DNA from: Porphyromonas sp.
GTDB lineage: Bacteria > Bacteroidota > Bacteroidia > Bacteroidales > Porphyromonadaceae
NCBI RefSeq assembly: GCF_030529325.1
Contig: NZ_JAUMXC010000007.1
Coordinates: 1-64,000 of the forward strand
DNA: 64,000 nucleotides
Direction of reading: 5' to 3'
The position numbers were made by a program, and so were the translations under genes. Every line of letters begins with the position of its first letter. Within the stretch, counting starts at the first letter, position 1. The notes under the pieces were generated by a model. The model saw only the letters and a list, made by a program, of their open reading frames with translations, ran no database searches and was not told the origin of the DNA. Positions 9,315 to 47,388 of this stretch are shown in pieces.

Positions 9315-9507
9315 CGCCTGCCTGTACCCTGGAGACAGACAGTTGATCAGTGATACATATGACTTCGATCTCCGGTCAATCAGTTTTTGGACGGGGTGAA
9401 AATTACCAGGTCCGTACAAATTACTCTTTTCATGATTTAGTTTACATTTCAATGGTTCTTCTGCAAGTATTAAAGCCGTGTGTGCCTTTCACGAACACCG
9501 AACAATG

Positions 9508-9535
9508 CAAACTTTTCTATAATCATGCCTGACAA
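9508..9535 (-). promoter_or_regulatory. Promoter-like site of LRR copy 1
   Basis: On the minus strand TTG (9533-9535) is followed after about 17 nt by AAAGTTTG (9508-9515), close to the Bacteroidetes pattern although the TA of TAnnTTTG is AA. Identical to the site at 11271-11298. It implies a leader of about 190 nt. Confidence 0.4.
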
Positions 9536-9709
9536 TTTATAAATAAAAAACATAACAAGAAAGCAATCGGAGAAAAACATCGTTGTTCAAGCTCAGGTAT
9601 CAAGAGCAAAATTAGGGCAACAGGTCGATTCAGCTATTCACGAAAAGAAAGAAAAAGAGAAAAATCAAAGTTTCATCCTCCTCATATACAGCTATCTTAC
9701 AAGCTGTAG

Positions 9710-11077: not shown

Positions 11078-11318
11078 CGCCTGCCTGTACCCTGGAGACA
11101 GACAGTTGATCAGTGATACATATGACTTCGATCTCCGGTCAATCAGTTTTTGGACGGGGTGAAAATTACCAGGTCCGTACAAATTACTCTTTTCATGATT
11201 TAGTTTACATTTCAATGGTTCTTCTGCAAGTATTAAAGCCGTGTGTGCCTTTCACGAACACCGAACAATGCAAACTTTTCTATAATCATGCCTGACAATT
11301 TATAAATAAAAAACATAA
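10461..11318 (-). repeat. Near-identical duplicated segment, copy 2
   Basis: Partner of 8633-9555, without the 65-bp insertion. Left edge: identity begins at CTCACATAAG (10461), upstream of which (towards the gene 3' end) the two genes diverge. Right edge: identity ends at CATAA (11318), in the leader/promoter region. Confidence 0.85.
11271..11298 (-). promoter_or_regulatory. Promoter-like site of the intact LRR gene
   Basis: Minus-strand TTG (11296-11298), 17-nt spacer, AAAGTTTG (11271-11278). Same sequence as upstream of the broken copy. Confidence 0.4.
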
Positions 11319-29483: not shown

Positions 29484-29556
29484 CCTCGAAATTAATGTGT
29501 CTAACTTGATGAATTAAGTTGTCTAACTTGTTGCGTCAAGTTAGACAACCTTTTTT
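29484..29556 (-). repeat. Dispersed three-arm repeat, copy 3
   Basis: CCTCGAAATTAA, then TGTGTCTAACTTG (29496-29508), GTTGTCTAACTTG (29518-29530), CAAGTTAGACAAC (29537-29549) and TTTTTT. The reverse complement aligns with copy 2 along its full length. Confidence 0.88.
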
Positions 29557-30169: not shown

Positions 30170-31747
30170 ATGAAAACATCTGTATTCTTTTTGGGGATAT
30201 TGAGTTGTTTATTACTCCTATCCTCATGCCGGAAAGACAGTATTGACACTTCATCTTGGCTCAAGGTAGATGCTGATGAAGTGATAAGACTGGAATCCGG
30301 CACCGGCGAGAAGATCATCGCAGTAAGTTCGAGTCAGGGGCAATGGGCCACCACAAGTAATGCGGACTGGCTGGAAGCCAGACAGGCAGGAGACTATCTT
30401 GTGCTCAACGCAAGACCTAATGAAACTCTTAATGTACGCAAAGCCCAAGTTCTGGTCGTTTCCTCCGGCATCAAAAAGGCTCTACAGATAGAGCAGGAAG
30501 GCTATCCTACCCTGATAGTGGAAACAGATCCGGCAGAGATCACGTTTGCAGAAGAAGAGGGACAAATGAGACTTATACTCAAGTCTAACAGTACCGAATG
30601 GACTGTAAACAATCCGTCAGAAGACTGGATAGAGACCATCGCTCGTCCTCGAGTCGGTGAGCTTGTCGTGAAAGTCAAAGCCAATGAAACCACAGATGCC
30701 CGTACGGCAGAGATAGCGATATCAGCCAATGACCGGATCAAAACCATCAAAGTCAAGCAAAATGGCAAGCTACACTTCTTCCTCCCCTTCTCAGACTGGG
30801 GCACAGACTTCGCAAGTGTACAGAAGAGAGAGCTTGCTCGTAAGAGTAAATTGGCAGGCACACCCAACCCCAATCTCGGTGTCAAAGACTATACCTTCTT
30901 CAGCGTAAGTAAAGTTTTCCAGCGTGTAAGGTACGAGTTTGAAGACTACGGCAGTGATATGCTGCAAGCTACCACGGTAATAGGAGACAAAACTGTCCCT
31001 TACACTAATGAATTTCATGAGTTCCTACTAAGTGAAGGTTTTGAGCGTATTACGCCATTGGATGGACGTACCAAAGGCTTGTTACTATATGTCCATAAGG
31101 AGAAGAAAATTGATATGTCGATATATACGACCCTTGACAAAGTAGAGAAGAGAGATGTATCGATCATATTCTGTCGTCCCATCGTAGAGCAACCCGGTCC
31201 TATGCCTACACTCTCTAAATTCGATACAGGCATGCTGAGATTTGGAGAAGCTACCAGCAAAGAAGTTGGAGATTGGGAAAAAGCCAATGGTGGCAAGTAC
31301 GATGAAGACTTTTCTGCAGCACTTGGGACTCCAATCTTTTTTGCCGAGAATCCATTCTATGCCAGAGGATACTTCTTTGACAAGGTTGGAGATACTCCCG
31401 AGACAAAGAAATTCATATTAAATGGATATTTATATCTCTACATAAGTCATGAGTTAGGTCTATACAGATACGGAGGTATGGAGTATTTGACCAATGAGTT
31501 CAAGGCATTGTTGGAACGCGAGGGCTTTGAGTTTATGTACTTCTACCCCGGTAACAGAAGCTACTACTTCAAAAATAAAACTAAGAAAGTAGAGGTAGCC
31601 ATCAAAAGTATCGTGTTGGGTCCTCGTAGATTGCTGCGTGTAAACTTCGGTCCGACACCGGAGAAAATAACCGGCACCTCACAGGCAATGGGAGCAACAG
31701 AGTCAAATAACATGATCAGTACTAACATTACAAACGTAGAGCTATGA
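30170..31747 (+). CDS. BACON-domain lipoprotein, surface operon gene 1
   Basis: 525 aa. Lipoprotein signal ending LLLSSC (Cys20) then RKDS. Two BACON-like domains follow (residues ~30-110 and ~112-200; cores W.TTSNADWLEA and W.VNNPSEDWIE, ending IEQEG and VKQNG). From ~205 a region shared with the next two genes starts with LHFFLPFSDWG and RKSKLAGTP, and contains two similar pieces: FHEFLLSEGFE (~283) and YLTNEFKALLEREGFEF (~443). I do not recognise this C-terminal region. Likely a surface or periplasm-facing outer-membrane lipoprotein. First gene of a tight five-gene unit; its stop overlaps the next start by 4 nt. Confidence 0.82.
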   Translation: MKTSVFFLGILSCLLLLSSCRKDSIDTSSWLKVDADEVIRLESGTGEKIIAVSSSQGQWATTSNADWLEARQAGDYLVLNARPNETLNVRKAQVLVVSSGIKKALQIEQEGYPTLIVETDPAEITFAEEEGQMRLILKSNSTEWTVNNPSEDWIETIARPRVGELVVKVKANETTDARTAEIAISANDRIKTIKVKQNGKLHFFLPFSDWGTDFASVQKRELARKSKLAGTPNPNLGVKDYTFFSVSKVFQRVRYEFEDYGSDMLQATTVIGDKTVPYTNEFHEFLLSEGFERITPLDGRTKGLLLYVHKEKKIDMSIYTTLDKVEKRDVSIIFCRPIVEQPGPMPTLSKFDTGMLRFGEATSKEVGDWEKANGGKYDEDFSAALGTPIFFAENPFYARGYFFDKVGDTPETKKFILNGYLYLYISHELGLYRYGGMEYLTNEFKALLEREGFEFMYFYPGNRSYYFKNKTKKVEVAIKSIVLGPRRLLRVNFGPTPEKITGTSQAMGATESNNMISTNITNVEL

Positions 31748-33204
31748 AATATTATATAATAGCAATCCTTGTAGCCCTATCTCTATGTATTACTTCATGT
31801 AGAGACGAGCAGGTATCTCCATCAAGACAAAAAACAGAATTGGTTGTGTCTCAGCAAGAGACTCTGACTCTACCTGCAGAAGCTACAGAGCACCGTGTAT
31901 CTGTACAAACCAATGTACAAGAGTGGACCTGTTTCTCCAAAAGCTCTTGGTTGCAAGCCAAGGCATCAGGTCGTGAAATAGTATTGTCTGTCTCCGCCAA
32001 TACCGAAGCTCAGTATAGAGAAACAACAGTGCAAATAGTAGCAGCAGATCAAGTATATAATTTTAATGTAAAACAACACGGGACTGCAATCACTCTGGCC
32101 CTAAGCAATCAGCCTGATATCATAGATCAGTGGGGAGCAGAGATCTTGGTGGATGTCAATACCAACGTAGAGACATGGACTGCAGAGTCAAGTGAGAGTT
32201 GGGTAGAAGTTACACCCAAACACAGGGACGATCAGCTATTGATCAAAGTCATTGCCAATGATTCTCGCTACAAGAGAAATGCCACAGTGACTGTCACAGA
32301 AACCACATCCGGTATCAAGAAGGAGTTTCAGCTCGTACAGAGAGGTATGGTCTATTTCATCCTTCCTTTTACAGGTTATGAGAGCAGCAAGGGAGAACTC
32401 ATAAACTTCGAAACCAATAGAAACAGTAACCTTGTACAGACTCCCACAGAGTACAACCCTGTGTACAAATTTGAGACGGTCAGCCCCATCTTCCGTACTA
32501 TACTGTACACCGTAGATATAGATGAGACAATCATGAGGAGTCAGGTATTCTTCGATACGAAGAAGATGACAACCGATCAGGAAAAAGCTGAATTTTACGG
32601 ATATCTGTCGGATGAAGGGTTTAATCACGAAGGGGACAACATCTACTACTCTACAAAACACCAGTCAGAAGCAGAACTTAAGGCCAATCACATGCTTTAT
32701 ACCTACTATCCTCTGGAGAAGGTTGCTACCCAGCCTATTGATGGCCTACCTCTTGAAAACACAGAGATCAACAGCACAACTCCCGATGAGATCAAGGCGT
32801 ATCAAAAGAATCTGGGTAGAGAGTACATAGACAGTCTGTCTAAGGAAGATAGAAGATTGGTGTTCCGTTCTTTTGATGGTGATAAAGAGGAGTTACACGT
32901 ATATTACTTTAGCTCTGTATCAGGCAAATTGATTGAAGCAATCCACTTCTATGAAAATATGCCAAGGTACATGTACACAGCGGATAATCAAAAGACTTAC
33001 TTCACGAGAGAGCTTCGTAAGGCTATCCGTAAGGATAAGTTCACCTTCAACTATTATTCAGACACCAAGCTCAGATATAGCTATCTCTCTCCGGACCGTA
33101 AGACTGAGATGCTTGTAGAGCAGGTGAAGCATCCATATCCGGAGAAAGGACAGACTCCTAAAAAGATGGTGAAGATCAAGTTCCAAATCAATCGTAATAT
33201 CTAA
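31744..33204 (+). CDS. BACON-domain lipoprotein, surface operon gene 2
   Basis: 486 aa. Signal ending LCITSC (Cys19). Two BACON-like domains (~residues 30-115, W.CFSKSSWLQA; ~115-200, W.AESSESWVEV, ending LVQRG), then the shared region: VYFILPFTGYE, NRNSNLVQTP, FYGYLSDEGFN and YFTRELRKAIRKDKF. It is the most diverged of the three in the last part. The start overlaps the previous stop (ATGA). Function unknown; see the neighbouring subtilase and barrel for context. Confidence 0.82.
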   Translation: MKYYIIAILVALSLCITSCRDEQVSPSRQKTELVVSQQETLTLPAEATEHRVSVQTNVQEWTCFSKSSWLQAKASGREIVLSVSANTEAQYRETTVQIVAADQVYNFNVKQHGTAITLALSNQPDIIDQWGAEILVDVNTNVETWTAESSESWVEVTPKHRDDQLLIKVIANDSRYKRNATVTVTETTSGIKKEFQLVQRGMVYFILPFTGYESSKGELINFETNRNSNLVQTPTEYNPVYKFETVSPIFRTILYTVDIDETIMRSQVFFDTKKMTTDQEKAEFYGYLSDEGFNHEGDNIYYSTKHQSEAELKANHMLYTYYPLEKVATQPIDGLPLENTEINSTTPDEIKAYQKNLGREYIDSLSKEDRRLVFRSFDGDKEELHVYYFSSVSGKLIEAIHFYENMPRYMYTADNQKTYFTRELRKAIRKDKFTFNYYSDTKLRYSYLSPDRKTEMLVEQVKHPYPEKGQTPKKMVKIKFQINRNI

Positions 33205-33223
33205 TTCCAGAAGATTAAATAAT

Positions 33224-34741
33224 ATGAAACACTTACTTAAATATACCACAGTCCTGATTGGTCTGCTCACCATTGGGTTATACGGGTGTACCAGAGATAT
33301 ACTACCGGATGAGGATAACTCCGTAGAGCTTACTCTATCTCAAAGCGTAGTCCTACTGGACAATACAACGACAAAAGCAGATGTGAATATCACCACTACA
33401 CGAGATTCATGGAGCTGTATTACATCCGCAGAGTGGTTGGAGTGCACAAAGTCTGAGAATAAAATGCACCTAATGGCTAAACTCAATGACACAGGCCATG
33501 AACGTGTAGCCACAGTCATTGTCACTGCCGGCGAGACTACAGAACAGGTTGTCGTCAAGCAGGCAGCAACCACTGGAGGCATAGGCGGATCTATCTCTAC
33601 AGACAAGACCGAGTTTCAGGTGGATCAGTGGGGAGATACCTTTGTGATACCTGTATATACCCACAGTAAAACCTGGGAAGTCATCTCTTCTGAAGATTGG
33701 GTCAGCGTACGTCCTAATCTTGTTAAGGGTTCTATACAGATTGTAGTAGCCGAAACAGAAGAACGTCCCGACAGAGAGGCTAATATCCTCGTCAGAGAGA
33801 CCAATACCGGAGACTATTTTTCTGTCAAGATTTCTCAAAAGGGTATCATGTTTATCATCCTTCCCTACCTGAAGTTTGGGACAACGATAGACCCTCTCAT
33901 GGAGTTTGAAGAAGCTCGTAAGAGTACAGTCATCGGTAGACCTGGGGATAACTCGGGAGCCTATGGAGCTGTCAACAAAGACCTATGGAAATTTGCAACC
34001 AAGAGTAAGCTCTTTACTCGTATGGAGTATCGCTTTGCCGGCGATAAGATGACTCAAGCATATGCATACAGTGATATTTACGAGCTGGATAAAGCGTATG
34101 ATGAGTTTACAGCTTATTTAGAAGATCTGGGCTTTATTCCGGATGATAAGAAGTTTAAGTTCTTCAATAAAAAGATGGAAATGATGGCTGAGTTGGGCTT
34201 AGGGGCAGGAGGTAATGAGATCTACCTACTCTATACATATCTTCCCAATCAGAAAGAGGCCTATCCCACCTTTGAGGTGTTCCCCGGACGTCTCTCCAAC
34301 ATAGAAGGGTGGACCGGCTATGACAAGGATAAAATTCATGAGTGGGAGACTGCCAATGGAGGTGTAACCAACAAGAAGGATGGCACTGTAAGCTCAATCT
34401 CCAAGACTCGTACTATCTATTACACATCCGTCAACCCTCTTGCACCTGAGAAGACAACATACACCCTCAAACCATCTGCGGAAGAGCAAGGCAAGGAAAA
34501 GATCACAGGATTTTCGCTCAAGTTCAGAGAAGTCGATACGAGCAAGTTCTTTTGGGAGAAAGATGGCAACTTCTATCTCACAAATGAGTTTATGTCCCTA
34601 TGTACCAAGTCCAAGATGAGATATGTAGGTAAGAATAGCGATGTACATATCTTCACCCACACAGAAACAGGCGCCTTCTATAGGATCAAGGTAACTGGAG
34701 ATCCCGGTAAGGCTTCTGTCACAATGGACGTTACACCATAA
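33224..34741 (+). CDS. BACON-domain lipoprotein, surface operon gene 3
   Basis: 505 aa. Signal ending LYGC (Cys22; TIGLYGC). Two BACON-like domains (W.CITSAEWLEC, VVKQAA; W.VISSEDWVSV, ISQKG), then MFIILPYLKFG, EEARKSTVIGRPG, FTAYLEDLGFI and YLTNEFMSLCTKS. Gene 1 and gene 3 share the EWE/DWEKANGG-type segment (~residue 375), which gene 2 has in altered form. 19 nt after gene 2 and 16 nt before the subtilase gene. Confidence 0.82.
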   Translation: MKHLLKYTTVLIGLLTIGLYGCTRDILPDEDNSVELTLSQSVVLLDNTTTKADVNITTTRDSWSCITSAEWLECTKSENKMHLMAKLNDTGHERVATVIVTAGETTEQVVVKQAATTGGIGGSISTDKTEFQVDQWGDTFVIPVYTHSKTWEVISSEDWVSVRPNLVKGSIQIVVAETEERPDREANILVRETNTGDYFSVKISQKGIMFIILPYLKFGTTIDPLMEFEEARKSTVIGRPGDNSGAYGAVNKDLWKFATKSKLFTRMEYRFAGDKMTQAYAYSDIYELDKAYDEFTAYLEDLGFIPDDKKFKFFNKKMEMMAELGLGAGGNEIYLLYTYLPNQKEAYPTFEVFPGRLSNIEGWTGYDKDKIHEWETANGGVTNKKDGTVSSISKTRTIYYTSVNPLAPEKTTYTLKPSAEEQGKEKITGFSLKFREVDTSKFFWEKDGNFYLTNEFMSLCTKSKMRYVGKNSDVHIFTHTETGAFYRIKVTGDPGKASVTMDVTP

Positions 34742-34757
34742 TATAATAGAAAAGATA

Positions 34758-37514
34758 ATGAACAATAAATATATTCTTTTGACACTGCTTGGTGCTTCAG
34801 TTGCCTTAGGCAGTTGTCGTCAGGATGATTTGGATCTTCCTACCCAAGACCTCGAACAATCAGCTGTACAAACAGTTGTAGACGATAGAGAGATTGCTTT
34901 GCCTAATGTCATTCGTGTTCGTTTCGCTAATAGTGAGGTAGAACGGATAGAACTTTTACTCAAAGACCAGCAGGGCTCGGACAAACTGGAGACAAGTTCT
35001 GTGCCCCTGCTTGAAGAGATCAAGGCAGTGCATATGGAACGTGTCTTCCCTCACGCAGGCAAGTATGAGGAACGCACCAGACGTGCAGGTCTACACCTAT
35101 GGTATGATATCACCTTGGAGGACGAAGTTTCGGAAGCAGAGCTTATGGCAGCACGTAACAAAGCGATGGAGTTGGCTGATAAGTCATCCGGCGTTACAGC
35201 GACAGAGCTTGTATATGTACCTAAGCTCCCTCAGACCAAGGTTGTCAAGTTTGATATGAATCAGCTCAGGAGCATCAGCACTACAGCGGCACTGCCAATG
35301 AACGATCCTATGCTATCCAATCAATGGCACTATCATAACGATGGAAGTCTTATCAGATCCAAGGCCGGAGCGGATATCAATCTATTCGAGGCATGGAAGA
35401 AAGAGTCAGGTAAGTCCGAAGTAATCGTATCTGTCGTAGATGGTGGTATCGATTTTGAACACGAGGATCTTAAAGACAATATGTATATCAATGAGGCAGA
35501 ACTCCGTGGTGTGGCAGGCAAAGACGATGACGGCAATGGGCATATCGATGACGTTTATGGCTACAACTTCTACCTCAAAAAGGGGACAATCAATGCCATC
35601 GACCATGGTACACATGTAGCAGGGACTGTCGCTGCACGCAACAACAACGGTATCGGTGTGTGTGGTGTTGCCGGAGGAAACGGTGAAGCCGGATCCGGAG
35701 TGAAACTCATGTCTTGTCAGACATTTGACATAGACCCCAAAGACAAAAGGATAAAGGGTGGTGGCTTTGCACAAGCGATCAAGTATGGAGCGGACAATGG
35801 TGCTGTAATCAGCCAAAACTCTTGGGGGACTCCCGGTACAACAAGAATCTCGCCCTCTACAAAGGAAGCTATCGACTACTTTATTAAGAACGCAGGATGT
35901 GATACTGAAGGAAACCAGCTACCTAACTCTCCTATGAAGGGAGGTGTGGTGATCTTTGCGGCAGGTAACGAAGGTACTGACTATGCAGCCTCACCCGCTG
36001 CCTACACAAAGGTCATATCTGTGTCGGCAATGAGTACAGATTTCCGAGTATCGCCATACTCCAACCGTGGAGACTGGGTAACTATCATGGCTCCGGGTGG
36101 AGACATCTACCAACACAAAGGTCAAGTACTCAGCACACTGCCAAACAACGAATATGGCTATATGCAGGGTACCTCGATGGCTTGTCCTCATGTATCCGGT
36201 GTTGCTGCTTTGATTGTATCCAAGTTTGGTGGTCAAGGATTCACTGCAGAAGAACTAACTAAGCGTCTCAAGACTGCCATCTCATCCGTGGATATCAACG
36301 AGATGAACCCTGAGTATGCCGGACGTTTAGGTGTAGGATATATAGATGCCAATATTGCAATATCAGGCAAAGCCTCTACGACTGCTCCGGATATGGTTCG
36401 TTGGGAAAAGGTAACATCTACTCATACAGGACTTGATCTGACTTGGCACGTAGCCGGTGATGAGGATGATCAAAAAGCATTTGGTTATAATATCTACATG
36501 GATAAAAAGCCATTGACCAAGGAAAAACTTGCCAAGGCACATAAGATCACCGTTACCAAGAGTGCAGCCAAGTTAGGAGAAACAATAGACTATCAGATAA
36601 AAGGCCTTAGTCCCAAGACTCGCTACTATTTGGCTATCGAAGCATACGACAGATGGGGTAATGTGAGTGAACCGGCTTTCAAAGATGGAGAAACTCTATC
36701 CAATCATAATCCGGTAATCACAGTTCCCGATCATGCAGCTATTCGCCTCTCAGGCAAGGATACTTATGATCTCACACTATCTGTATCCGATCCTGATGGA
36801 CACAAATGGACTCATAAGATCGCAGGTCCATCACATGGTGTGACAGTGGAGCGTGTGGGTGATGAGCTCAAGCTACATTTCCGTGTAGTTGTAGCACAGG
36901 GATCATATACTATCAAGGTCGTTATTACAGACGAACTCGGAGGAACAGTTGAGCAAGACATCTCATTTGAAGTCTATCAGAATGTGGCTCCAAAGCAGAT
37001 CAAGCAGTTTGAAAAGGCTTATCTACCTATGCATACAGAACCTCTGAAGTTTGATCTTGACACCTACTTCAGCGATGCCAACAAGGATGCCCTCAAGTAC
37101 TCCGTACGCACTATCGGGGCAGGTAGTTCAGTGGCTGTTATCATAAATGAGTCGAACATGACTGTCAAAGGTGCGAATCTTGGTCGTGCGGCCTTAGAAA
37201 TTACAGCTACAGATCCCAAGGGTATGCAAGCCAAAGCTATTCTCGAGCTGGAAGTCGTTCAAGATGAGTTGGTTCATATTATTTATCCAACACCGGTAAG
37301 TAGCACGTTGAACATACGTTTTGCATCTCGCTTGCGAAGCGCCTTGGTTAAGGTCTTCACACCCTCAGGAGAAAAGGTTTTGGATCATACGGTCAATCTT
37401 CCGGAAGGGCAACCTGTTTCCCAACTGGATGTACGTAGTCTATCTACAGGCACTTACATCTTGCACGTAGAAGCAGAAGGTAAAGAATATCGTCAATCAT
37501 TCATCAAACGCTAA
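34758..37514 (+). CDS. S8 subtilase with lipobox and T9SS sorting domain
   Basis: 918 aa. N-terminus MNNKYILLTLLGASVALGSC reads as a lipoprotein signal (Cys20). Residues ~45-190 form a propeptide-like region. The peptidase S8 domain (~195-540) has Asp228 (SVVDGGIDFEH), His283 (DHGTHVAGT) and Ser473 (GTSMACPHVSG), so it should be active. A fibronectin III-like domain (~550-640) and two cadherin/Ig-like domains (~650-835) follow. The last ~80 residues (YPTPVSSTLNI, LDVRSLSTGTYILHV, QSFIKR) match a type A T9SS C-terminal sorting domain. T9SS cargo usually has an SPI signal, so the lipobox is odd. Its neighbours are lipoproteins upstream and a PorV-like barrel 12 nt downstream. Confidence 0.9.
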   Translation: MNNKYILLTLLGASVALGSCRQDDLDLPTQDLEQSAVQTVVDDREIALPNVIRVRFANSEVERIELLLKDQQGSDKLETSSVPLLEEIKAVHMERVFPHAGKYEERTRRAGLHLWYDITLEDEVSEAELMAARNKAMELADKSSGVTATELVYVPKLPQTKVVKFDMNQLRSISTTAALPMNDPMLSNQWHYHNDGSLIRSKAGADINLFEAWKKESGKSEVIVSVVDGGIDFEHEDLKDNMYINEAELRGVAGKDDDGNGHIDDVYGYNFYLKKGTINAIDHGTHVAGTVAARNNNGIGVCGVAGGNGEAGSGVKLMSCQTFDIDPKDKRIKGGGFAQAIKYGADNGAVISQNSWGTPGTTRISPSTKEAIDYFIKNAGCDTEGNQLPNSPMKGGVVIFAAGNEGTDYAASPAAYTKVISVSAMSTDFRVSPYSNRGDWVTIMAPGGDIYQHKGQVLSTLPNNEYGYMQGTSMACPHVSGVAALIVSKFGGQGFTAEELTKRLKTAISSVDINEMNPEYAGRLGVGYIDANIAISGKASTTAPDMVRWEKVTSTHTGLDLTWHVAGDEDDQKAFGYNIYMDKKPLTKEKLAKAHKITVTKSAAKLGETIDYQIKGLSPKTRYYLAIEAYDRWGNVSEPAFKDGETLSNHNPVITVPDHAAIRLSGKDTYDLTLSVSDPDGHKWTHKIAGPSHGVTVERVGDELKLHFRVVVAQGSYTIKVVITDELGGTVEQDISFEVYQNVAPKQIKQFEKAYLPMHTEPLKFDLDTYFSDANKDALKYSVRTIGAGSSVAVIINESNMTVKGANLGRAALEITATDPKGMQAKAILELEVVQDELVHIIYPTPVSSTLNIRFASRLRSALVKVFTPSGEKVLDHTVNLPEGQPVSQLDVRSLSTGTYILHVEAEGKEYRQSFIKR

Positions 37515-37526
37515 CATCACTAGTCT

Positions 37527-38462
37527 ATGATAAAGAAAATCATATTGTTCTGCCTGGGATTCTGCGCTCTAGGCACGACATTAAATGGTCAGACGCAGAC
37601 CCTTCCTATTTTGGGTATGGGAAATGATATGCGCTCTGCCGGTATGGCAGGAGTCAATCCGGTCTATAGCCTTCAAGGTAACTTATACTCAAGTCCAACC
37701 TCTCTGCTATATGGTACAGACAAAGGGATACGCCTCAGCTATCAGATCGGCTTCCATCACACCACAGATGCCAATAGCGTCACATATCATCAAGCCTCAG
37801 CAGGCTATCGTCTGGGGCAACTCCGGGGAGTTTACTTGGGATGGCGCTACTTGGGAGGTACGGAAGTCCCTTATGTCAATGCTATGGGTATTACACGTGG
37901 TATGATTCATCCTCGAGACTGGGCAGTAGAACTGGGTTATACACGTCTCTTTGGAGAAGCATTTTCAGGTTGGGGACGCGTAGGTTATCTGCAGTCTTAC
38001 AACTCGGTAACAGCTGATGTTGTCACAGCTTCTTTGGGAGCTGACTATCGTTGTCGTGGGTTCTATGACGACTTTGGAGATTGCATGTTGAGTCTTTCTG
38101 TGGAAAACTTTGGCTCTAACGTAAAGTATGCGAAGTCCGCCGAAAGCTTCAAGCAGCCTACTCTTGCTCGGCTTGAGGGTAGTGTCAGCTTCCTAAAGGA
38201 TCGCAACCTCACGTTGGGAGCAGGAGCTCGTTACTTGTTTACAGGTAATGACAACAAGAAGATGATCTACAACTTCGGCGGGGAATACCGTCCGGGCAAA
38301 CTCATAAGCCTCCGCAGTGGTTATACATTGTCACCTTATGGCAATGTCTTGAGCTTAGGATTAGGTATCGGGTACAAGGGCTTCTTGTTGGACGGAGCTT
38401 ATGACAAACACGAGGTCAAGGAGTTTAACATGATTCGCCTGGGTATTACTTGGGCTTTGTAA
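37527..38462 (+). CDS. PorV/PorQ-like outer-membrane barrel
   Basis: 311 aa with a signal peptide (to ~LNGQ, residue 22). The mature start GMGNDMRSAGMAGVNP, then SPTSLLYG, is typical of PorV/PorQ/FadL-type barrels of Bacteroidetes, with amphipathic strands to a C-terminal aromatic-rich end (GITWAL). PorV carries T9SS cargo to the attachment complex and PorQ works with PorZ; this protein is shorter than PorV and its pairing with a sorting-domain subtilase suggests a dedicated helper, which is an inference. Last gene of the operon; a terminator follows at 38499. Confidence 0.75.
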   Translation: MIKKIILFCLGFCALGTTLNGQTQTLPILGMGNDMRSAGMAGVNPVYSLQGNLYSSPTSLLYGTDKGIRLSYQIGFHHTTDANSVTYHQASAGYRLGQLRGVYLGWRYLGGTEVPYVNAMGITRGMIHPRDWAVELGYTRLFGEAFSGWGRVGYLQSYNSVTADVVTASLGADYRCRGFYDDFGDCMLSLSVENFGSNVKYAKSAESFKQPTLARLEGSVSFLKDRNLTLGAGARYLFTGNDNKKMIYNFGGEYRPGKLISLRSGYTLSPYGNVLSLGLGIGYKGFLLDGAYDKHEVKEFNMIRLGITWAL

Positions 38463-38498
38463 TCCGGAAATTCCTTTTCGTAACTTTTTATAAGATGA

Positions 38499-38536
38499 GG
38501 GTGTGTCAAAATGGAATTTTTGGCACACCCTTTTTT
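38499..38536 (+). terminator. Terminator of the surface operon
   Basis: GGGTGTGTCAAAA (38499-38511) pairs with TTTTTGGCACACCC (38517-38530) with one mismatch (T.G), then six T. 36 bp after the barrel stop. Confidence 0.85.
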
Positions 38537-38962: not shown

Positions 38963-41900
38963 ATGACACATCAGTTATCTAAATTAATGACATGTCTTAG
39001 GGTTATGCTGTTATTGATCCTCCTGAGTCCGGTTTGGCTCGCAGCAGGTCAACAGAAAACCCAGCGAACTATTACCGGGACAGTGTATGATGATGAACGC
39101 CTACCTTTGATCGGGGCAAGGGTCAAGATCGAGGGAACAAAGATCGTCACAGGCACAGGGGCAGAGGGGACTTATACCGTGAAAGTTCCCGTGGATCAAG
39201 ACATTGTGCTGATCGTATCTTTTGTGGGTCTGCAAACAACCAAAGTGGTGATCCCCAAGGGAAGCACAGATATCAAAAAGGATATTTCCCTCCAAGGAGA
39301 TACTAAACTGAAAGAAGTTATCGTAACAGGTATCTACACCAGACCTATGGGGAGTTATACCGGATCTGCCACAACGATAAAGGGGGAAGAGATCCGTAAG
39401 GTCGGAGGGCAAAATCTTTTGCAAAGTCTCAAAAACTTAGATCCATCTATCTACCTTCCGGACAATATCTCTCTCGGCTCTGACCCGAACTCTGTGCCGG
39501 ACATTTCACTCCGTGGCAATTCGGCGGTACTCTCGGAAGAGTCGAGCAACCTACGCAGTACGAGATTCAACCCCAACCAGCCCTTATTCATCGTCGATGG
39601 TTTCGAGACATCTATCGAAACCATTATGGACATGGACCTCAATCGTATAGAGTCTCTGACTGTCCTCAAGGATGCTTCGGCAAAAGCGTTGTACGGATCA
39701 AAGGCGGCCAATGGTGTGATCGTCATTGAGACCCGAAAGCTACAAGGTGGTCAACAAAGAGTCACTTATGCCGGGAGCCTCAACTTTGAACTTCCTGACC
39801 TCACAAGCTATAGCCTTACAAATGCTCGCGAAAAACTGGAGGTAGAGCGTCTCAACGGAGTATACACTGCAGATACACAAGGAAGGCAGTATGAACTCGA
39901 CAAACTCTACCAGTCGAGATGGGCGAAAGTTGTCGGAGGGCTTGATACATATTGGCTTGCCAAACCTCTACGTGCAGGGATAGGCCACAAGCATAACCTA
40001 TCTATAGAACTGGGAGACGCTCAAAGCCTGAAGGGAATCATCGACTTCAGCTACAACGAGATACAGGGAGCCATGAAGGGGTCATCTCGTGTCAATGTAT
40101 CAACATCGGCAAACTTCTCTTATCGTAAGGACAACATCATCTTTCGCAACATCCTGACAATCGCTTCCAACAAAGCCACGGACTCCCCATATGGTTCGTT
40201 TGGTGAGTATGCTCGTATGAACCCATATTGGGAAGCTGTCGATGATAAAGGGAACATCAAAAGATGGGCCGAAAACAACATCCCTAACCCCTTGTACAAT
40301 GGGACAATAGGGACTTCGTCCGTCAACGAATACATTGCCATAACCAACAACATATATGCAGAGTGGCATATCCTCCCTCAACTCAAGTCTACTCTTCGCC
40401 TCGGTATCAGCGAACGCAGAGCTGAGGGCAATGTATTCTTGCCTCCGATGCACTCGGCATTTGCCCATGTGAAAGAAGTAGATAAACGAGGTCGATACAC
40501 GCTGGATAACGGAAGAGAGTCCAACTACACCGGCGACTTGAACGTCAACTACAACACAAATATCGGAAAGCATTCATTCTTCGTCAACGGAGGGGCTTTC
40601 ATCGGTTCAAGATCAAGCAGCAACTACCGTCACATCGCTGAGGGCTTTTCCAACAACCAGCTGACCGATGCAACGTTCGCAAAAGGTTATGCCGAGAACT
40701 CCAAACCTCAAGGGATACAGAGTCTGATACACGACCTCAGCTTCCTCCTCGCGACATCGTACGACTATGATAGCAGATACCTTATCGACCTTACACTCAG
40801 AGAGAGTGCTTCTTCTCTCTACGGAGCTAACTCTCGATGGGCAAGCAGCTGGAGTGCCGGCCTGGGTTGGAACATCCACAACGAATCTTTCTTGAAGGGT
40901 AAAAAATGGTTGCAAGTGTTGAAGTTGAGGGCTTCACTCGGTCTGACAGGAAACCAAAATTTCCTCGCCAACTATTCTATCCCCACCTACCTCTTTATCA
41001 ACAATCAGGGATACACCGGTCTCACAGGTGCTTACCTCAAGAATATGCCTAATCCAGATCTCAAGTGGGAACAACGCATGGACTACAATGCAGGGATGGA
41101 TGTACGAATGGGACCTGTCGCTCTATCTTTGGATCTCTACCAATCTGATACTCGTAATATGCTCACGGATCTGACTATCCCCGGCTCTACAGGCTTTGGA
41201 ATCGTGAAAGACAACCTCGGTATGGTACGTAACACCGGTATCGAAGGTAAGATGACCTACAGGCTATGGGGTGATGCCAATGGTAACTACATCAATCTCT
41301 TCGGGTCGATGATACACAACAAAAACAAGATCGTATCACTCAGCCAAAGTCTTAAGGAGTACAATGACCGTATGAGACAGGAGGCAGTACAAAACAACAG
41401 GCAGGCTCCGGTATTGATGTACGAGGACGGACAGTCTCTGACTACCATCTGGGCAGTAGAGTCTGCAGGTATAGACCCGTCTAACGGTCGTGAGATCTAT
41501 GTCAAAAGAGATGGAAGCCTGACTTATGTATACAGTGCAAATGACCTCATCGCAAGCGGTAATACCGAGCCTAAGATCAGAGGGAACTTCGGCTTCAGTG
41601 GAGAGTATCGCAACTTCGGTGTCAACTTGTACTTCAACTACCAAGTGGGTGCGATGATGTACAACTCCACTCTCGTAGACAAGGTGGAAAATGCCAACGT
41701 AGACTACAATGTCGACAGACGTATCATGCAAGGACGTTGGCAAAAACCGGGAAACAACACGCCGTTCAAGAGATTTGATACTGCCAATCGCACCCGTGTG
41801 ACAACGAGATTTATACAACGTAGAGATGAGTTGCAGATATCTGCACTATCCGTCTACTATGAGGTGCCTAAAAAGTGGGCCAATCGCTTGCGTAGCGAAC

Positions 41901-42019
41901 GCCTGCGCTTGGCGTTCAACATGAACGACTTGGCGACATTCTCTACCATCCATGTGGAGAGAGGTACGACTTATCCTTTCGCACGTAAATTCTCTTTTTC
42001 TCTCACCTCTACATTCTAA
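38963..42019 (+). CDS. SusC/RagA-family TonB-dependent transporter
   Basis: 1018 aa. Signal peptide (~1-30), a carboxypeptidase-regulatory-like domain (~35-115; TITGTVYDDE.LPLIGARV), the SusC-type VIVTGIYTR junction (TonB-box region), a plug (~125-250, with LSRNSAV-type and IESLTVLKDASAKALYGSKAANGVIVI segments split around residue 225) and a C-terminal barrel. SusC proteins import large substrates with the lid lipoprotein SusD. Gene content downstream resembles peptide-import loci rather than sugar loci, as there are no glycoside hydrolases. Confidence 0.94.
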   Translation: MTHQLSKLMTCLRVMLLLILLSPVWLAAGQQKTQRTITGTVYDDERLPLIGARVKIEGTKIVTGTGAEGTYTVKVPVDQDIVLIVSFVGLQTTKVVIPKGSTDIKKDISLQGDTKLKEVIVTGIYTRPMGSYTGSATTIKGEEIRKVGGQNLLQSLKNLDPSIYLPDNISLGSDPNSVPDISLRGNSAVLSEESSNLRSTRFNPNQPLFIVDGFETSIETIMDMDLNRIESLTVLKDASAKALYGSKAANGVIVIETRKLQGGQQRVTYAGSLNFELPDLTSYSLTNAREKLEVERLNGVYTADTQGRQYELDKLYQSRWAKVVGGLDTYWLAKPLRAGIGHKHNLSIELGDAQSLKGIIDFSYNEIQGAMKGSSRVNVSTSANFSYRKDNIIFRNILTIASNKATDSPYGSFGEYARMNPYWEAVDDKGNIKRWAENNIPNPLYNGTIGTSSVNEYIAITNNIYAEWHILPQLKSTLRLGISERRAEGNVFLPPMHSAFAHVKEVDKRGRYTLDNGRESNYTGDLNVNYNTNIGKHSFFVNGGAFIGSRSSSNYRHIAEGFSNNQLTDATFAKGYAENSKPQGIQSLIHDLSFLLATSYDYDSRYLIDLTLRESASSLYGANSRWASSWSAGLGWNIHNESFLKGKKWLQVLKLRASLGLTGNQNFLANYSIPTYLFINNQGYTGLTGAYLKNMPNPDLKWEQRMDYNAGMDVRMGPVALSLDLYQSDTRNMLTDLTIPGSTGFGIVKDNLGMVRNTGIEGKMTYRLWGDANGNYINLFGSMIHNKNKIVSLSQSLKEYNDRMRQEAVQNNRQAPVLMYEDGQSLTTIWAVESAGIDPSNGREIYVKRDGSLTYVYSANDLIASGNTEPKIRGNFGFSGEYRNFGVNLYFNYQVGAMMYNSTLVDKVENANVDYNVDRRIMQGRWQKPGNNTPFKRFDTANRTRVTTRFIQRRDELQISALSVYYEVPKKWANRLRSERLRLAFNMNDLATFSTIHVERGTTYPFARKFSFSLTSTF

Positions 42020-42025
42020 ACGATT

Positions 42026-43534
42026 ATGAAGCACTTGAAATATATTTCATTCATCCTTGCCATCTTTGCTATGAATGCTTGCAACAGTTGGCTTGATGTA
42101 TCTCCCAAGTCGGAAATTCGTGGAGAAGACCATTATAAAACGGTCGATGGGTTCAAACAGACCTTGATCGGTTGTTACATCAGTATGACTCATGCTGATC
42201 TCTATGGCAAAAATCTATCTTGGTACATGACTGAGATTCTTGCCAATCAGTATGAGAAAGACTATCGAGACGACCAAGGCAAGGCTCTCTATGAGCATCA
42301 GTATCAAAACTCCGGAGTCGTCATCCTTACGAAAAACATATGGGATAAGATGTACAATATCATCGTCAATGTCAACGATGCCTTGAGATACCTTCAAGAC
42401 TCGGAAAACAAAATGACACCCATAGAATACAGACAGATACGAGGAGAACTGTATGCTCTCAGAGCGTACTTGCACTTCGACTTGATGCGTCTGTACGGCG
42501 AAAGTACGCCTAAAAAGGACTTCGCAAAGTGGGCAAGTCTCAAGTCCATACCTTATCAGACAGATGTGACAAAAAACTTCCCTCCTCAAAAGACAAATGC
42601 TGAGACTGTCGCGATGATAATGGAAGACATCGAGAGGGCTTTGGAGGATCTGAAATCATCAGACCCATTGGTATCGGAACACCCATTCAACTCGTACAAT
42701 GAGATCAATTCGGATGGCTTCTTCAATCTTCGCAACCTTCGTCTCAATTATCTGTCTGTGCTTGCCCTCAAGGCACGCCTATTCCAATGGCAGGGGACAC
42801 CCGAAAAGATGAAAGAGTGTCGCTCCGTGGCGGATATGATACTTAATCTCGTCACAGAAGCTACCAATAGGGGTGCGCATTTTGACACCAAGATCGGGAT
42901 GATACCTGCCAAGAAGGTAAAGGCTTCAAACTTAAATTTGTTTGAGGAGTCTCTCTTTGGTCTTGAAGTACCTAAAATATCAGAGAAGATAGCTTCTTAT
43001 CTCCGCATCGACTTTGCCAACAAAGTGTATGCCATGTGGATAGCAGAGTCAAGGGCTAAAGCGATCTTTGAGAACTCAAACATCGATATCCGATTTACCA
43101 AACAAATGATCAAAGGGACAGGCTATCCGTCCGGTTATGTGCCTGCCAAACTTTTTCAAGCGGATTTGGGTGAAAACAGGGGACGCCTCTCCTTGTTAAG
43201 ACTTTCGGAGATTTATTTGATGGGGGCAGAGGCTTCACTCTTGTCCGAAACGCCAGACATCGAGCACGCTCGCGAGTTAGTATCTATGCTACGTTTGTTC
43301 AGAGGACATACTACAGAAATCAAGGCAGATGTCTCCTCTGAAGAACTACTACAAATCATCTATAAAGAGTACCAAAGAGAGTTTTTTGCTGAAGGAGTAC
43401 AGTTTTTTGTCTACAAAAGATTGGGACTTGAAAAGATCTCAAGCAATGAAGACTCAAAGATGACTCCGGAGGATTACAGACTTCCGTTCCCGGACTTTGA
43501 GATCAATGCGGGACGTACACAAGCTTCAAACTAA
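42026..43534 (+). CDS. SusD/RagB-family substrate-binding lipoprotein
   Basis: 502 aa. Lipoprotein signal ending AMNAC (Cys19), then NSWLDVSPKSEI, the classic SusD start. Helical TPR-like scaffold with LYALRAYLHFDLMRLYGE (~residue 150) and RLSLLRLSEIYLMGAEA (~395), both hallmarks of the family. It caps the SusC barrel outside the cell and binds substrate. Six nt after the SusC stop. Confidence 0.94.
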   Translation: MKHLKYISFILAIFAMNACNSWLDVSPKSEIRGEDHYKTVDGFKQTLIGCYISMTHADLYGKNLSWYMTEILANQYEKDYRDDQGKALYEHQYQNSGVVILTKNIWDKMYNIIVNVNDALRYLQDSENKMTPIEYRQIRGELYALRAYLHFDLMRLYGESTPKKDFAKWASLKSIPYQTDVTKNFPPQKTNAETVAMIMEDIERALEDLKSSDPLVSEHPFNSYNEINSDGFFNLRNLRLNYLSVLALKARLFQWQGTPEKMKECRSVADMILNLVTEATNRGAHFDTKIGMIPAKKVKASNLNLFEESLFGLEVPKISEKIASYLRIDFANKVYAMWIAESRAKAIFENSNIDIRFTKQMIKGTGYPSGYVPAKLFQADLGENRGRLSLLRLSEIYLMGAEASLLSETPDIEHARELVSMLRLFRGHTTEIKADVSSEELLQIIYKEYQREFFAEGVQFFVYKRLGLEKISSNEDSKMTPEDYRLPFPDFEINAGRTQASN

Positions 43535-43547
43535 ATCATTTTACGCT

Positions 43548-44423
43548 ATGAACTTATATATGAATATTATACGAGGATGCTTACCTTTCCTTTTTATAGC
43601 TTTACTCTCGAGCTGTACTCAGGTGGAGCCATCCGTTTTTGACAGTAAGTGTGACTCGGCGCGTTTCCCTCACCGAAGGGAAAAAGCTCCCGAAGCTGAA
43701 GGGTATGATGTAGAGAAGCAGGCATTCCTGTCATCATTCTCTTTCATAGATGTAAATATGCCTAAGGAGCACACTATATCTATCCCGTTGGTTCTTTCCG
43801 GGAATCCTGCACCAAGAGAGCGAAAAGTGACTGTCGAAACCATTGCTGAGGAATCCAACGCCCCCAAAGAGGCTTACAAAATCCTATCAGCAGTCATCTT
43901 TGCTGACACTGTGGTTGGAGAAGTGAAGCTACAACTCTACAACCTCCCTGAACTAAAAGAAAACACCTACACTCTATCTCTAAAAATAAAGGATAGCAGT
44001 GACTTAAGAGCCGGTCCGAGCGAAGACACCAAAGCTGTTTTCACATGGAATGCGACCATCCCCATACCTACGGCATCTGCTCTCATCATGTCATACAACA
44101 TGTTGATAAATAGTTCTATTGACTATAATTCCACATCGGATGATTTTATCAGCACCAGGGCATTGGAGGTGATTGCCGAGTGTTTCAATTGGTATGACTT
44201 GGATGATGTAAAAAAATGGGGGGCCAAAGCCAATGATGCATCCGTCGGCAAGTACAAATATCTGTTGAACAGCTATTGGCTTGGGGCAGGAGGAGCTCAG
44301 AGGCTCTATGCAAAGCGGCTTGCTGCGTTCATCAAGGACTACAATGCCAAGCACCCTGATGCACCCCTCGTGCACAACTCAGGGACTGATAAGGGTAAAC
44401 CCATACAGGCGAGAAAATATTAG
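43548..44423 (+). CDS. DUF4843-type lipoprotein
   Basis: 291 aa from the ATG at 43548, 13 nt after the SusD stop; a longer frame overlaps SusD. Signal and lipobox end IALLSSC. The mature part (FSFIDVNMPKEHTISIPLVLSG, YTLSLKI..SSDL.AG, FTWNATIP) matches the layout of DUF4843 proteins encoded next to SusCD pairs, and the C-terminal WYDLDDVKKWG...LNSYWLG segment is also typical. Probably a surface subunit of the importer, as in the Bacteroides thetaiotaomicron BT2261-2264 peptide system (established for that organism; homology here inferred from organisation). Confidence 0.8.
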   Translation: MNLYMNIIRGCLPFLFIALLSSCTQVEPSVFDSKCDSARFPHRREKAPEAEGYDVEKQAFLSSFSFIDVNMPKEHTISIPLVLSGNPAPRERKVTVETIAEESNAPKEAYKILSAVIFADTVVGEVKLQLYNLPELKENTYTLSLKIKDSSDLRAGPSEDTKAVFTWNATIPIPTASALIMSYNMLINSSIDYNSTSDDFISTRALEVIAECFNWYDLDDVKKWGAKANDASVGKYKYLLNSYWLGAGGAQRLYAKRLAAFIKDYNAKHPDAPLVHNSGTDKGKPIQARKY

Positions 44424-44444
44424 ACTTATACTGCACCAATTTTT

Positions 44445-46064
44445 ATGAAAACATATAAGATCATGAATAAAATATTTCATGCATTCGCGCTGAGTTTGTT
44501 GGCACTTTCTGTTGTAAGCTGTTACAAGGATCAGAGTAGCCTTCAGACCACCCCGACTCCGGAGATCACAATAACAGTCGAGGATGTTGACAAGGAAATA
44601 CACATCGATGGCGAGGAGATCCTAACGATACAACCCAAAGTATCGGCACCTCAAGGCGCTGAACTCACATACAAGTGGGAGCTCTCACGCAAAGCAGGAG
44701 ACTACGAAAAGGACATGGAGGTGATCTCGACCGATCTTGCATTGAAAGATTACAAAGTCACTCGTCCGACAGACTCCAGTACACCATACTATTTGCGTTA
44801 CACCGTGACCAACAAGTCATTTGGAGATGTAGAGACTATCCTGTTGTGGAAGTTGTATGTCAGCCCGGTTCTTTCAGATGGGTTACTTTTCTCTTACACC
44901 AAGGACGGAAAGACTTCTGACCTCGGCTATATCAAGTCGCAAGAGTTTACAAGGGATTATATCGGTGGCAAGCAGATAATCCTCACCGGGCTCTACGAAA
45001 AAGTGGCGGGGAACGCATGGGATGGACTGATCAAAGCTCTCAGCTTTTCAGTAAAAGGAAATGTCTACTTCAAACACACTCCCTATGCTTGGGCGGTGAC
45101 TGCCGATCACAAGCTTTTGCGTTTTGACCCTCTCAACTATTCGCTTGACGGATCATCAGACCGCAATGACCTTATGATGGTAGAAGAAGAGTCTCCCAAG
45201 GTACTTCAATTCTCCCACAACTCATCCAATATCTTTATCCGCACAGAGAAGCGCGCTTACCGATGTCCATCAAATGCACTGAACTTCTTCTCTGAACCTA
45301 TCGAAGGTTGGGATGCCGAGACAGTTTCAGGAGACATCACTGCAGCACATGGTTGTCTCAAAGATAGAGGAGGTATTGTGTGGTACAACAGTACTCAAGG
45401 GATGTTTAAGACTCTTGATCAGAACAGTGTTACGACTTTCAAGAAGTCCGAACACTTCGACCCCAATATACTTCCCAATCAGGAAGCCATCACAGCAGCC
45501 ACGACAATCGAAGGGCCAAGAAAAGAACCGGGTAAATCATTGTTCCTCCTCAAAGATCAAGTCTCGCAGGAGTACAACATATATGAACTTGATCTCACTC
45601 CCTCCCATGATCTTCAGGCAGATCGTAAATACTCACTCTCCGGAGAAGCCAAAGCACTGCTCGACAGACGAGTTGATGCCTCATTTGCAGTACGCCAACC
45701 CGTACTCTACGTCGCAACTCAGGATGGTATCCATGTCATCAACTGGAAAGGCGACGGTACTACGAGTGTCAACACCGCTGCATTTCTATCGTTGGCAAAG
45801 TTTGGCAAAGTGAAGTCTATACGATTCTATCGCCAAGGAGAATGGATCATACAGCCTCACCGTGCACTCTTTAAGCTCTCTGAGTACAACGAAGCTGCTC
45901 TCATTGCGGTGACAGAAACCTCTGACGGCAACGATCAAATACACTTCATCCCGATGGCTACGGACAACACTGCGTCATTGGGAGCATTGCAACCCGAGAG
46001 TGAGATCAGGACATTCTCGCCAAAGGTCGGAAAGATCTTGGATGTCATTCCGATGGGAAAATAA
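44445..46064 (+). CDS. PKD-like-family lipoprotein of the Sus locus
   Basis: 539 aa; the ATG at 44463 (MNKIFHAF) is an equally good start. Lipobox SVVSC. Residues ~25-155 contain a PKD/Ig-like pair (ILTIQPKV....LTYKWEL; YLRYTVTNK), followed by a beta-propeller-like region with repeated D/G-rich strands (VYFKHTPYAWAVTADHKLLRF, RTEKRAYRC, VLYVATQDGIHVI). Such PKD-like lipoproteins commonly follow DUF4843 genes and probably decorate the SusCD complex. 21 nt after the previous stop. Confidence 0.8.
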   Translation: MKTYKIMNKIFHAFALSLLALSVVSCYKDQSSLQTTPTPEITITVEDVDKEIHIDGEEILTIQPKVSAPQGAELTYKWELSRKAGDYEKDMEVISTDLALKDYKVTRPTDSSTPYYLRYTVTNKSFGDVETILLWKLYVSPVLSDGLLFSYTKDGKTSDLGYIKSQEFTRDYIGGKQIILTGLYEKVAGNAWDGLIKALSFSVKGNVYFKHTPYAWAVTADHKLLRFDPLNYSLDGSSDRNDLMMVEEESPKVLQFSHNSSNIFIRTEKRAYRCPSNALNFFSEPIEGWDAETVSGDITAAHGCLKDRGGIVWYNSTQGMFKTLDQNSVTTFKKSEHFDPNILPNQEAITAATTIEGPRKEPGKSLFLLKDQVSQEYNIYELDLTPSHDLQADRKYSLSGEAKALLDRRVDASFAVRQPVLYVATQDGIHVINWKGDGTTSVNTAAFLSLAKFGKVKSIRFYRQGEWIIQPHRALFKLSEYNEAALIAVTETSDGNDQIHFIPMATDNTASLGALQPESEIRTFSPKVGKILDVIPMGK

Positions 46065-46260
46065 CCGGAGCCTGTCTGAAGCATCTAAACGCAGACTATA
46101 CAAAACATCGACCGACAAGAGCTCGAGGTTCGACTTCGGCAATCAAGATCATAGATCTCATAATTTTTCATACGAGAGTTTTATGGGATCTATGAGTCTC
46201 TGGAGTGGGCATCACTATATGGTAAATCATATCAGCACTCATAAAACATCAAAAAATCTT

Positions 46261-47388
46261 ATGAAAAAAAGAAATAATCTAAAGAACTACTTCAAAAAAA
46301 GCAAGACTCTTTTACTCCTTTCAGGCTCTATTTTCGCCCTTTACGGTTGCATGAATTCACCTGTCTCTGTGCTTCGAGGTGATGGTATACCTGCCGAATA
46401 TGAAGGTAAGCATATGTTTATCGAAAACTCAATGACCGGGACAGTCGACTCTCTTAAAGTTGAGTCCGGGACTTTTAGCTATACCTTACCTGTCGACACA
46501 ACCATTCTTTACCGTGTTGATATTGAGGGCAATGAGGCTGGGAATGTGTTTTTTATAGCAGAGGAAGGCGAGCACAGACTCCAACCCAAACACGAAGCCA
46601 TAGGATTTCATATAGAAGGAGGAAGGCTCAACAACGAACTCAGAGCAATGATATCAAAAGTATCAGAAATGAATAACGAACAGGCACAAGGGGTCATGGC
46701 AAATTTCAGAAACTCTAAGCTCAGTAATGAGGAAAAAGCATATGCCAATCATCTTCAAGCCATTCAATACAGAGAGATGGCGACAAACTTGTATTCTGAT
46801 TACCTGAGTCGTCACTCCGATAATGCCATTGGTATGCTAGCATTTTCACGACTCGAATATAAGGATGACGACGAATTTATCAAAGCATACGAGGCTCAAT
46901 CCGAAGTCGTTAAACAAGGTTTTGCCCAACGTATGAGGTACGAAAAGATTTTCAATAACAGGAAGACGCAGGAAGGCATGCCCTATTCAGACTTTGAAAT
47001 CAATATGGTAGATGGTAAGACCATCAAGTTTTCAGACTTCATGGAAGAGGGAAAGTATCTGCTAGTAGACTTTTGGGCCTCATGGTGTGTCCCTTGTCGT
47101 AAAATCATGCCTTATGTCAAAGATATGATCAATCGTTTCCCCTCTGACAGCCTTACAATGGTCAGCATCGGGAGCTTTGACAAGCCCGAACCTTATACAA
47201 AAGCGGCCAAAGAAGAGGATATACCATGGAGAGATGTTCTCGACGTAAACTCTAATGGTGCCCGCGTATACGGTGTGACATCGATACCTCATTTTATCCT
47301 GATCTCCCCACAAGGAGAGATTGTCAAACGAGCTTCTAATGTCCTACACGTAGAAGCCGTCCTCGAAGAAAGACTGCTCAACAAATAA
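46261..47388 (+). CDS. TlpA-like thioredoxin-fold lipoprotein (DUF4369-type N-terminus)
   Basis: 375 aa from the ATG at 46261; upstream in-frame codons overlap the PKD-like gene and carry no signal. Signal ends FALYGC. Residues ~45-130 resemble DUF4369 (VLRGDGIPAEYEGKHMFIENS), then a helical linker and a TlpA/thioredoxin domain (~240-375) with the redox motif WASWCVPC (Cys276, Cys279) and cis-Pro TSIPHF. Thiol-disulfide oxidoreductases of this type are often encoded in Sus-like loci; substrate unknown. The 196-bp gap before it may weaken coupling to the upstream genes. Confidence 0.88.
   Translation: MKKRNNLKNYFKKSKTLLLLSGSIFALYGCMNSPVSVLRGDGIPAEYEGKHMFIENSMTGTVDSLKVESGTFSYTLPVDTTILYRVDIEGNEAGNVFFIAEEGEHRLQPKHEAIGFHIEGGRLNNELRAMISKVSEMNNEQAQGVMANFRNSKLSNEEKAYANHLQAIQYREMATNLYSDYLSRHSDNAIGMLAFSRLEYKDDDEFIKAYEAQSEVVKQGFAQRMRYEKIFNNRKTQEGMPYSDFEINMVDGKTIKFSDFMEEGKYLLVDFWASWCVPCRKIMPYVKDMINRFPSDSLTMVSIGSFDKPEPYTKAAKEEDIPWRDVLDVNSNGARVYGVTSIPHFILISPQGEIVKRASNVLHVEAVLEERLLNK

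Follow-up and report, generated by a model that had tools for sequence, protein, structure and literature searches.

In the attachment complex of Porphyromonas gingivalis, PorU is held by PorV and PorZ by PorQ, in each case through an uncleaved type A C-terminal domain (CTD) on a PorV-family barrel (PMC10202324). Recent work assigns every type A CTD to a single shuttle, PorV, and treats own barrels as a feature of type B cargo (PMC12618676, PMC12635249), as in the pairs SprB-SprF and PG1035-PorP, where a cognate PorP/SprF barrel encoded directly downstream is the anchor of the type B CTD substrate (PMC9143113, PMC12618676). The dentilisin operon prcB-prcA-prtP of Treponema denticola encodes lipoproteins upstream of an acylated subtilisin-family protease, PrtP, whose lipidated propeptide is cleaved off and whose partners then hold the mature enzyme (PMC8167434), and in the Bacteroidota β-barrel assembly machinery (BAM) complex the FadL-family barrel BamG binds the surface lipoprotein BamH via extracellular loops (PMC12578637). 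Here we describe a five-gene operon from Porphyromonas sp. (GCF_030529325.1, contig NZ_JAUMXC010000007.1, positions 1 to 64,000; these 64,000 nucleotides (nt) are called the window below) in which a subtilase carries both a predicted lipid signal and a type A CTD and is followed by a PorV-family barrel. On balance we favour reading it as a protease-display module, in which a dedicated docking pair would hold at the cell surface a protease exported as a lipoprotein.

The original prediction for this DNA named three BACON lipoproteins, a subtilase and a PorV-like barrel, which agrees with the Pfam and NCBIfam profiles, and took the five genes for a single transcription unit, which agrees with gaps of -4, 19, 16 and 12 nt between the five plus-strand open reading frames (ORFs) and with the terminator-like hairpin at 38497-38532. 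Absent from its description was a lipobox at the N-terminus of the subtilase (MNNKYILLTLLGASVALGSC, Cys20). The protein matches PF16361, PF00082 and PF18962 (35.8 bits, cut-off 27) and its CTD also TIGR04183 (31.8 bits, cut-off 23), so that the CTD is of type A; PF18962 was matched in 22 of 24 relatives, and the PF16361 region was found in 24 of 24 members. Among complete rows of an alignment of barrel-paired proteases, the lipid Cys is present in 64/64, the catalytic D and H in 65/65, and N and S in 66/66. This lipobox Cys (64/64) sets the subtilase apart from known type A cargo, which has a non-lipidated Sec type I signal. At least two acidic residues among the six after the Cys were counted in 43 of 68 CTD-bearing lipoproteases (background 19%), with a mean of 1.68 acidic residues in these six positions compared to a background of 0.79. 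An acidic stretch after the Cys is the surface-lipoprotein export signal of Bacteroidota (PMC5080379); lipobox and acidic residues of the CTD lipoproteases appear to resemble it, and surface exposure is predicted. The S8 part matches NF033595 weakly. A structure-sequence search with the N-domain gave no PDB relative, and its role as a propeptide is therefore putative.

The barrel belongs to the PorV family (NF033709, 103.6 bits, cut-off 90), as do 20 of 20 relatives at E 0.001, and lies below the equivalog cut-offs for PorV (NF033710, 42.9 vs 250 bits) and PorQ (NF033711, 23.8 vs 220 bits). Its best PDB matches are PorV structures (8gl6_F, Z 31.8; 6h3i_F, Z 31.6), with FadL (Z 27.7) and BamG (Z 25-26) scoring below them. 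An NCBIfam scan of the two proteins, protease and barrel, gave matches to the models for the type A CTD and PorV_fam, with none of type B in its listing, TIGR04131 not having been searched genome-wide. In the barrel tree, where one PorQ row in the wrong reading frame strays, PorV and PorQ form a single clade (support 95/93) with all module barrels outside, and an origin of the barrel by recent duplication of PorV was rejected on this ground.

The same arrangement recurs within the window genome (2.18 Mb, 94% complete), where five matches to TIGR04183 were counted alongside seven barrels of the PorV family. Reading of the loci gave six modules, consisting of 0-3 upstream lipoproteins, a CTD subtilase of 912-936 aa with lipid signal and a barrel of 311-319 aa located 2-73 nt downstream. 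The remaining barrel has the size of PorV. As the seven thus comprise one PorV and six module barrels, no PorQ is left. Directly after the barrel of another of these modules (L043, 9541-10338) an HmuY-family lipoprotein (PF14064) is encoded. When subtilase, barrel and CTD profiles were run on all of 38 Porphyromonadaceae genomes and 48 further regions were read, every readable CTD-bearing subtilase (48/48) had a same-strand PorV-family barrel -1 to 90 nt downstream, a 49th running off its contig, and none of six CTD-less relatives had one (Fisher p = 2.4e-7, contig-end case counted against, shared descent not removed). Carriers include Porphyromonas macacae, P. levii and other Bacteroidales, and an order-wide search of 247 genomes found further modules. 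The synteny search proposed with the original prediction thus points to a conserved module, the protease-barrel pair recurring across Bacteroidales. Over all loci from the wider Bacteroidota, pairing with the barrel depends on both lipid signal and CTD: 63 loci combine lipid signal, CTD and barrel, lipid-signal proteins without CTD have a barrel in 0 of 20 cases (two of these at contig ends), and long non-lipidated CTD subtilases are without barrel. Among the genes with lipid signal and CTD that lack a barrel of their own, one encodes a 2583-aa protein (L112) whose lipobox call is probably false. Among the loci read no non-S8 cargo adjoining a module barrel was found, and in G165, G185 and G264 (99% complete) the module barrels are the only ones found. 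The idea of decayed remnants of a type IX secretion system (T9SS) was rejected, since every complete row retains its lipid and catalytic residues, and retention or loss of the CTD goes with that of the barrel. One genome (G024) has, besides a normal module elsewhere, a tandem pair of lipoprotein subtilases of 644 aa each that have neither CTD nor barrel (L094).

The T9SS context differs between the groups of carriers. All 38 Porphyromonadaceae genomes have SprA and all 38 have PorV-family barrels. The PorU sortase was found above cut-off in 17 of them and not in 21, and the PorU profile gave no match in the window genome; genomes with PorU have 13-45 TIGR04183 matches, those without 0-5. The 21 genomes with SprA and PorV-family barrels and no PorU above cut-off would have a sortase-less T9SS, and two genomes, G003 and G006, possess SprA and zero TIGR04183 matches. 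Within this family the module goes hand in hand with loss of PorU, being present in 19/21 PorU-less vs 3/17 PorU-bearing genomes (p 7.5e-6, shared descent not corrected). Outside Porphyromonadaceae, a profile search detected no SprA in 15 of 16 module genomes, and these 15 yielded no full-length, high-scoring PorV and only 0-3 PF18962 matches each; the CTDs listed there adjoin PorV-family barrels, the exception being one second gene in G059. Assembly gaps are an unlikely cause of the missing SprA, considering that 15 of 16 genomes are concerned, that four others matched strongly in the same search and that full-length PorV is missing there too. By contrast, the three genomes that encode long, non-lipidated T9SS-kind subtilases all have SprA (3/3). 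Bacteroides ihuae, used as a control genome, matched the CTD and PorV-family profiles and not that of SprA.

Module carriers without detectable SprA imply that a type A tail cannot always mean secretion by T9SS. For the original prediction, which took the barrel for a dedicated shuttle of a T9SS-type subtilase, the dedication to the protease via its CTD stands, as judged from pairing, co-variation and the joint model described below. The shuttle as proposed is not supported: the protease carries a lipid signal, and 15 genomes without SprA match or full-length PorV have the same pair, so that no shuttling from the T9SS translocon has to be assumed for the barrel. Nevertheless, with SprA in every Porphyromonadaceae carrier a T9SS route is conceivable there. 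In Porphyromonas the protease would then be a T9SS substrate exported by SprA, with the PorV-like barrel replacing PorV as carrier and subsequently acting as anchor, a type A analogue of SprF for SprB, and T9SS-less carriers would use a derived, different route. The ubiquity of SprA and PorV-family barrels in the family (38/38 each) and the position of the barrel gene directly downstream, as with type B substrates (PMC12618676), speak for this. We nevertheless consider it unlikely, if worth keeping in mind, because in 15 of the 16 carriers outside the family neither SprA nor a full-length PorV was detected, the protease is lipidated (lipidation of SprB-type cargo was not reported in the literature searched), and an ordinary type A CTD would need no more than the PorV already present.

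Barrel divergence goes with the CTD and hardly with the protease domain. Over 66 pairs, a test which leaves gene adjacency and relatedness in gave a partial r of 0.49 between barrel and CTD distances with S8 held constant (0/2000 label permutations) and of 0.09 between barrel and S8 distances with CTD held constant. The reading frame of the window's CTD continues, past two stops, into that of the barrel, which allowed the two to be folded as a single read-through chain. AlphaFold2 (82-row alignment) gave the CTD seven strands and the barrel 14, with a predicted local distance difference test (pLDDT) of 89.7 and a predicted template modelling score (pTM) of 0.86. The CTD probably docks the protease on its own barrel. 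In the proposed course of events, the subtilase would be made as a lipoprotein and most likely reach the surface via the general Bacteroidota surface-lipoprotein route. Its type A CTD would bind the extracellular face of the PorV-like barrel and remain uncleaved, on the model of PorU on PorV, PorZ on PorQ and type B substrates on PorP/SprF. Since it is the propeptide-like part at the N-terminus that would bear the lipid, self-activation would take the lipid away, as reported for dentilisin PrtP, and this precedent together with uncleaved barrel-held CTDs suggests the dock as the means by which the mature protease would be retained after lipid loss. The BACON lipoproteins would be probable surface partners of the protease in substrate binding, folding or activation. 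SusC/SusD-type genes occur in or beside many modules, which makes feeding on protein a plausible purpose.

Several points weigh against a display module of this kind. The CTD-barrel model is that of a read-through chain, with neither predicted aligned error (PAE) nor a non-cognate control, and leaves the interface unproven, and joint recombination of the adjacent CTD and barrel genes could raise their co-variation. Two loci (L117 and L223) hold two proteases and one shared barrel, for which reason a strict 1:1 rule was rejected; another (L132) has lipid signal and CTD and no barrel in the 1.1 kb before the contig end; and three PorV-family barrels (L216, L217, L218) are orphans with no CTD gene nearby, possibly having other partners. 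SprA occurs in every Porphyromonadaceae carrier and a PorV in almost all of them, and the absence of SprA elsewhere was read from a single profile in mostly metagenome-assembled genomes of unstated completeness. Export route, surface location, binding, retention, propeptide removal and the roles of the lipoproteins are what we infer.

Other functions of the barrel were considered. It could be a dedicated outer-membrane translocator or flippase, Slam-like in effect, which the CTD engages from the periplasm and which moves the protease to the surface. There is usually one barrel per CTD lipoprotein, SprA would not be needed, and lipid and CTD both accompany pairing, all of which would suit such a function; however, a 14-strand barrel of the FadL type, with its N-terminal plug region, is not known to let a folded protein this large pass, and CTD-less lipoprotein relatives without barrel exist, so that we regard it as improbable. 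Only slightly less doubtful is the broader proposal that CTD and PorV-like barrel form a stand-alone outer-membrane system for lipoprotein export and display, the barrel itself exporting, either older than or split from the T9SS; if true, it would offer one explanation of the way in which lipoproteins of Bacteroidota reach the surface. Finally, the barrel might be a FadL-like channel for proteolysis products or lipids, the CTD merely tethering the enzyme, in a nutrient locus with SusCD. SusC/SusD-type genes near modules, as in the order SusC-SusD-lipoproteins-protease-barrel-thioredoxin of L220, would be in keeping with this, but SusCD genes are common in these genomes, a terminator separates the SusCD unit of the window, and we know of no transport role shown for PorV relatives; this appears very improbable.

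The lipoproteins of about 500 aa consist of two BACON domains and a C-terminal tandem alpha/beta part. In the AlphaFold2 model of BACON lipoprotein 1 (pLDDT 89.5) the BACON domains span residues 30-200 and the alpha/beta part residues 205-500, the latter a predicted tandem repeat whose units follow the order helix-strands-helix-strands and match no Pfam family. A fold search matched the BACON part to the BACON domain of BoGH5A (3zmr, Z 12.6); for the C-terminal part, not searched alone, the whole-protein search listed no match. With BACON as the only notable matches and no inhibitor-like match (again with the C-terminal part not searched alone), the suggested comparison of these two-BACON proteins to potempin-like inhibitors was left unconfirmed. 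Two BACON lipoproteins are also encoded upstream of four of the six CTD-less, barrel-less Porphyromonadaceae relatives; they therefore go with the protease and not with the barrel. BACON plus leucine-rich-repeat proteins are encoded on the minus strand at 7876-11215, the BACON domain being their sole tie to the module.

Table 1. Coordinates of the operon and its parts in the window.
Feature	Position	Strand	Remarks
BACON lipoprotein 1	30170..31747	+	525 aa; ORF, Pfam/NCBIfam
BACON lipoprotein 2	31744..33204	+	486 aa; start lies within gene 1 stop (ATGA)
BACON lipoprotein 3	33224..34741	+	505 aa; ORF, Pfam/NCBIfam
Lipoprotein subtilase with type A T9SS CTD	34758..37514	+	918 aa; catalytic D228, H283, N404, S473
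Cys20 codon, predicted lipid-attachment residue	34815..34817	+	Cys in 64/64 rows reaching the column
PF16361 Peptidase_S8_N region, residues 51-196	34908..35345	+	propeptide-like (putative role); would bear the lipid
Type A sorting domain (CTD; TIGR04183/PF18962)	37281..37511	+	profile matches; seven strands in model
PorV-family 14-strand outer-membrane barrel	37527..38462	+	311 aa; NF033709 above cut-off; PorV best PDB match
Rho-independent terminator-like hairpin closing the five-gene unit	38497..38532	+	strong; stem of 15 pairs followed by a T run

Upstream of the operon (29518-29549, plus strand) there is a hairpin GTTGTCTAACTT...AAGTTAGACAAC with a T run and no plus-strand gene clearly ending there. 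After the module terminator, 38963-47388 encodes SusC, SusD, DUF4843, a 539-aa ORF and a thioredoxin-like protein, gene kinds which stand together with protease and barrel in L220 and L219.

In the open-access literature, with subscription journals and preprints outside the search, the term 'PorV-like' was not used of such protease-barrel pairs. The part seen of a P. asaccharolytica study reports a serine protease, Poras_1747, with both type IX and Sec/SPII (signal peptidase II) signals and mentions no barrel there (PMC8861167); it probably belongs to the lipoprotein subtilase family. The module loci provide many type A CTDs, from a wide range of genomes, that go with a lipid anchor and a barrel of their own, also where the T9SS translocon is undetected. 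If correct, annotation as 'T9SS-secreted' from a type A domain would be wrong for a whole protein class, PorU-less Porphyromonas with a reduced T9SS would exist, and small genetic systems would allow tests of CTD-barrel recognition and of lipoprotein surface display without T9SS.

In comparison with known systems, the KLIKK protease-potempin pairs of Tannerella forsythia, named in the original prediction, share a protease beside a lipoprotein, but the module lipoproteins are BACON proteins of about 500 aa with no inhibitor similarity found. BamG is tied to BamA, and the module barrel is closer to PorV (Z 32) than to BamG (Z 25-26). Dentilisin resembles the module as an operon with upstream lipoproteins and an acylated subtilisin-family protease, the S8 part here matching NF033595 weakly; however, neither CTD nor barrel is described for dentilisin, and the upstream lipoproteins are comparable in gene position. 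With type B substrates and PorP/SprF the module shares a barrel gene directly downstream and one barrel per substrate, but its CTD is of type A (TIGR04183/PF18962), its barrel of the PorV type, its cargo a lipoprotein, and SprA is often absent. From PorU-PorV and PorZ-PorQ it differs in a cargo that is a lipidated subtilase instead of a sortase or PorZ, in barrels outside the PorV+PorQ clade and in its presence where SprA is undetected; PorU and PorV matches neighbour each other in several Porphyromonadaceae genomes, and what these pairs have in common with the module is a type A CTD with a PorV-family barrel as partner.

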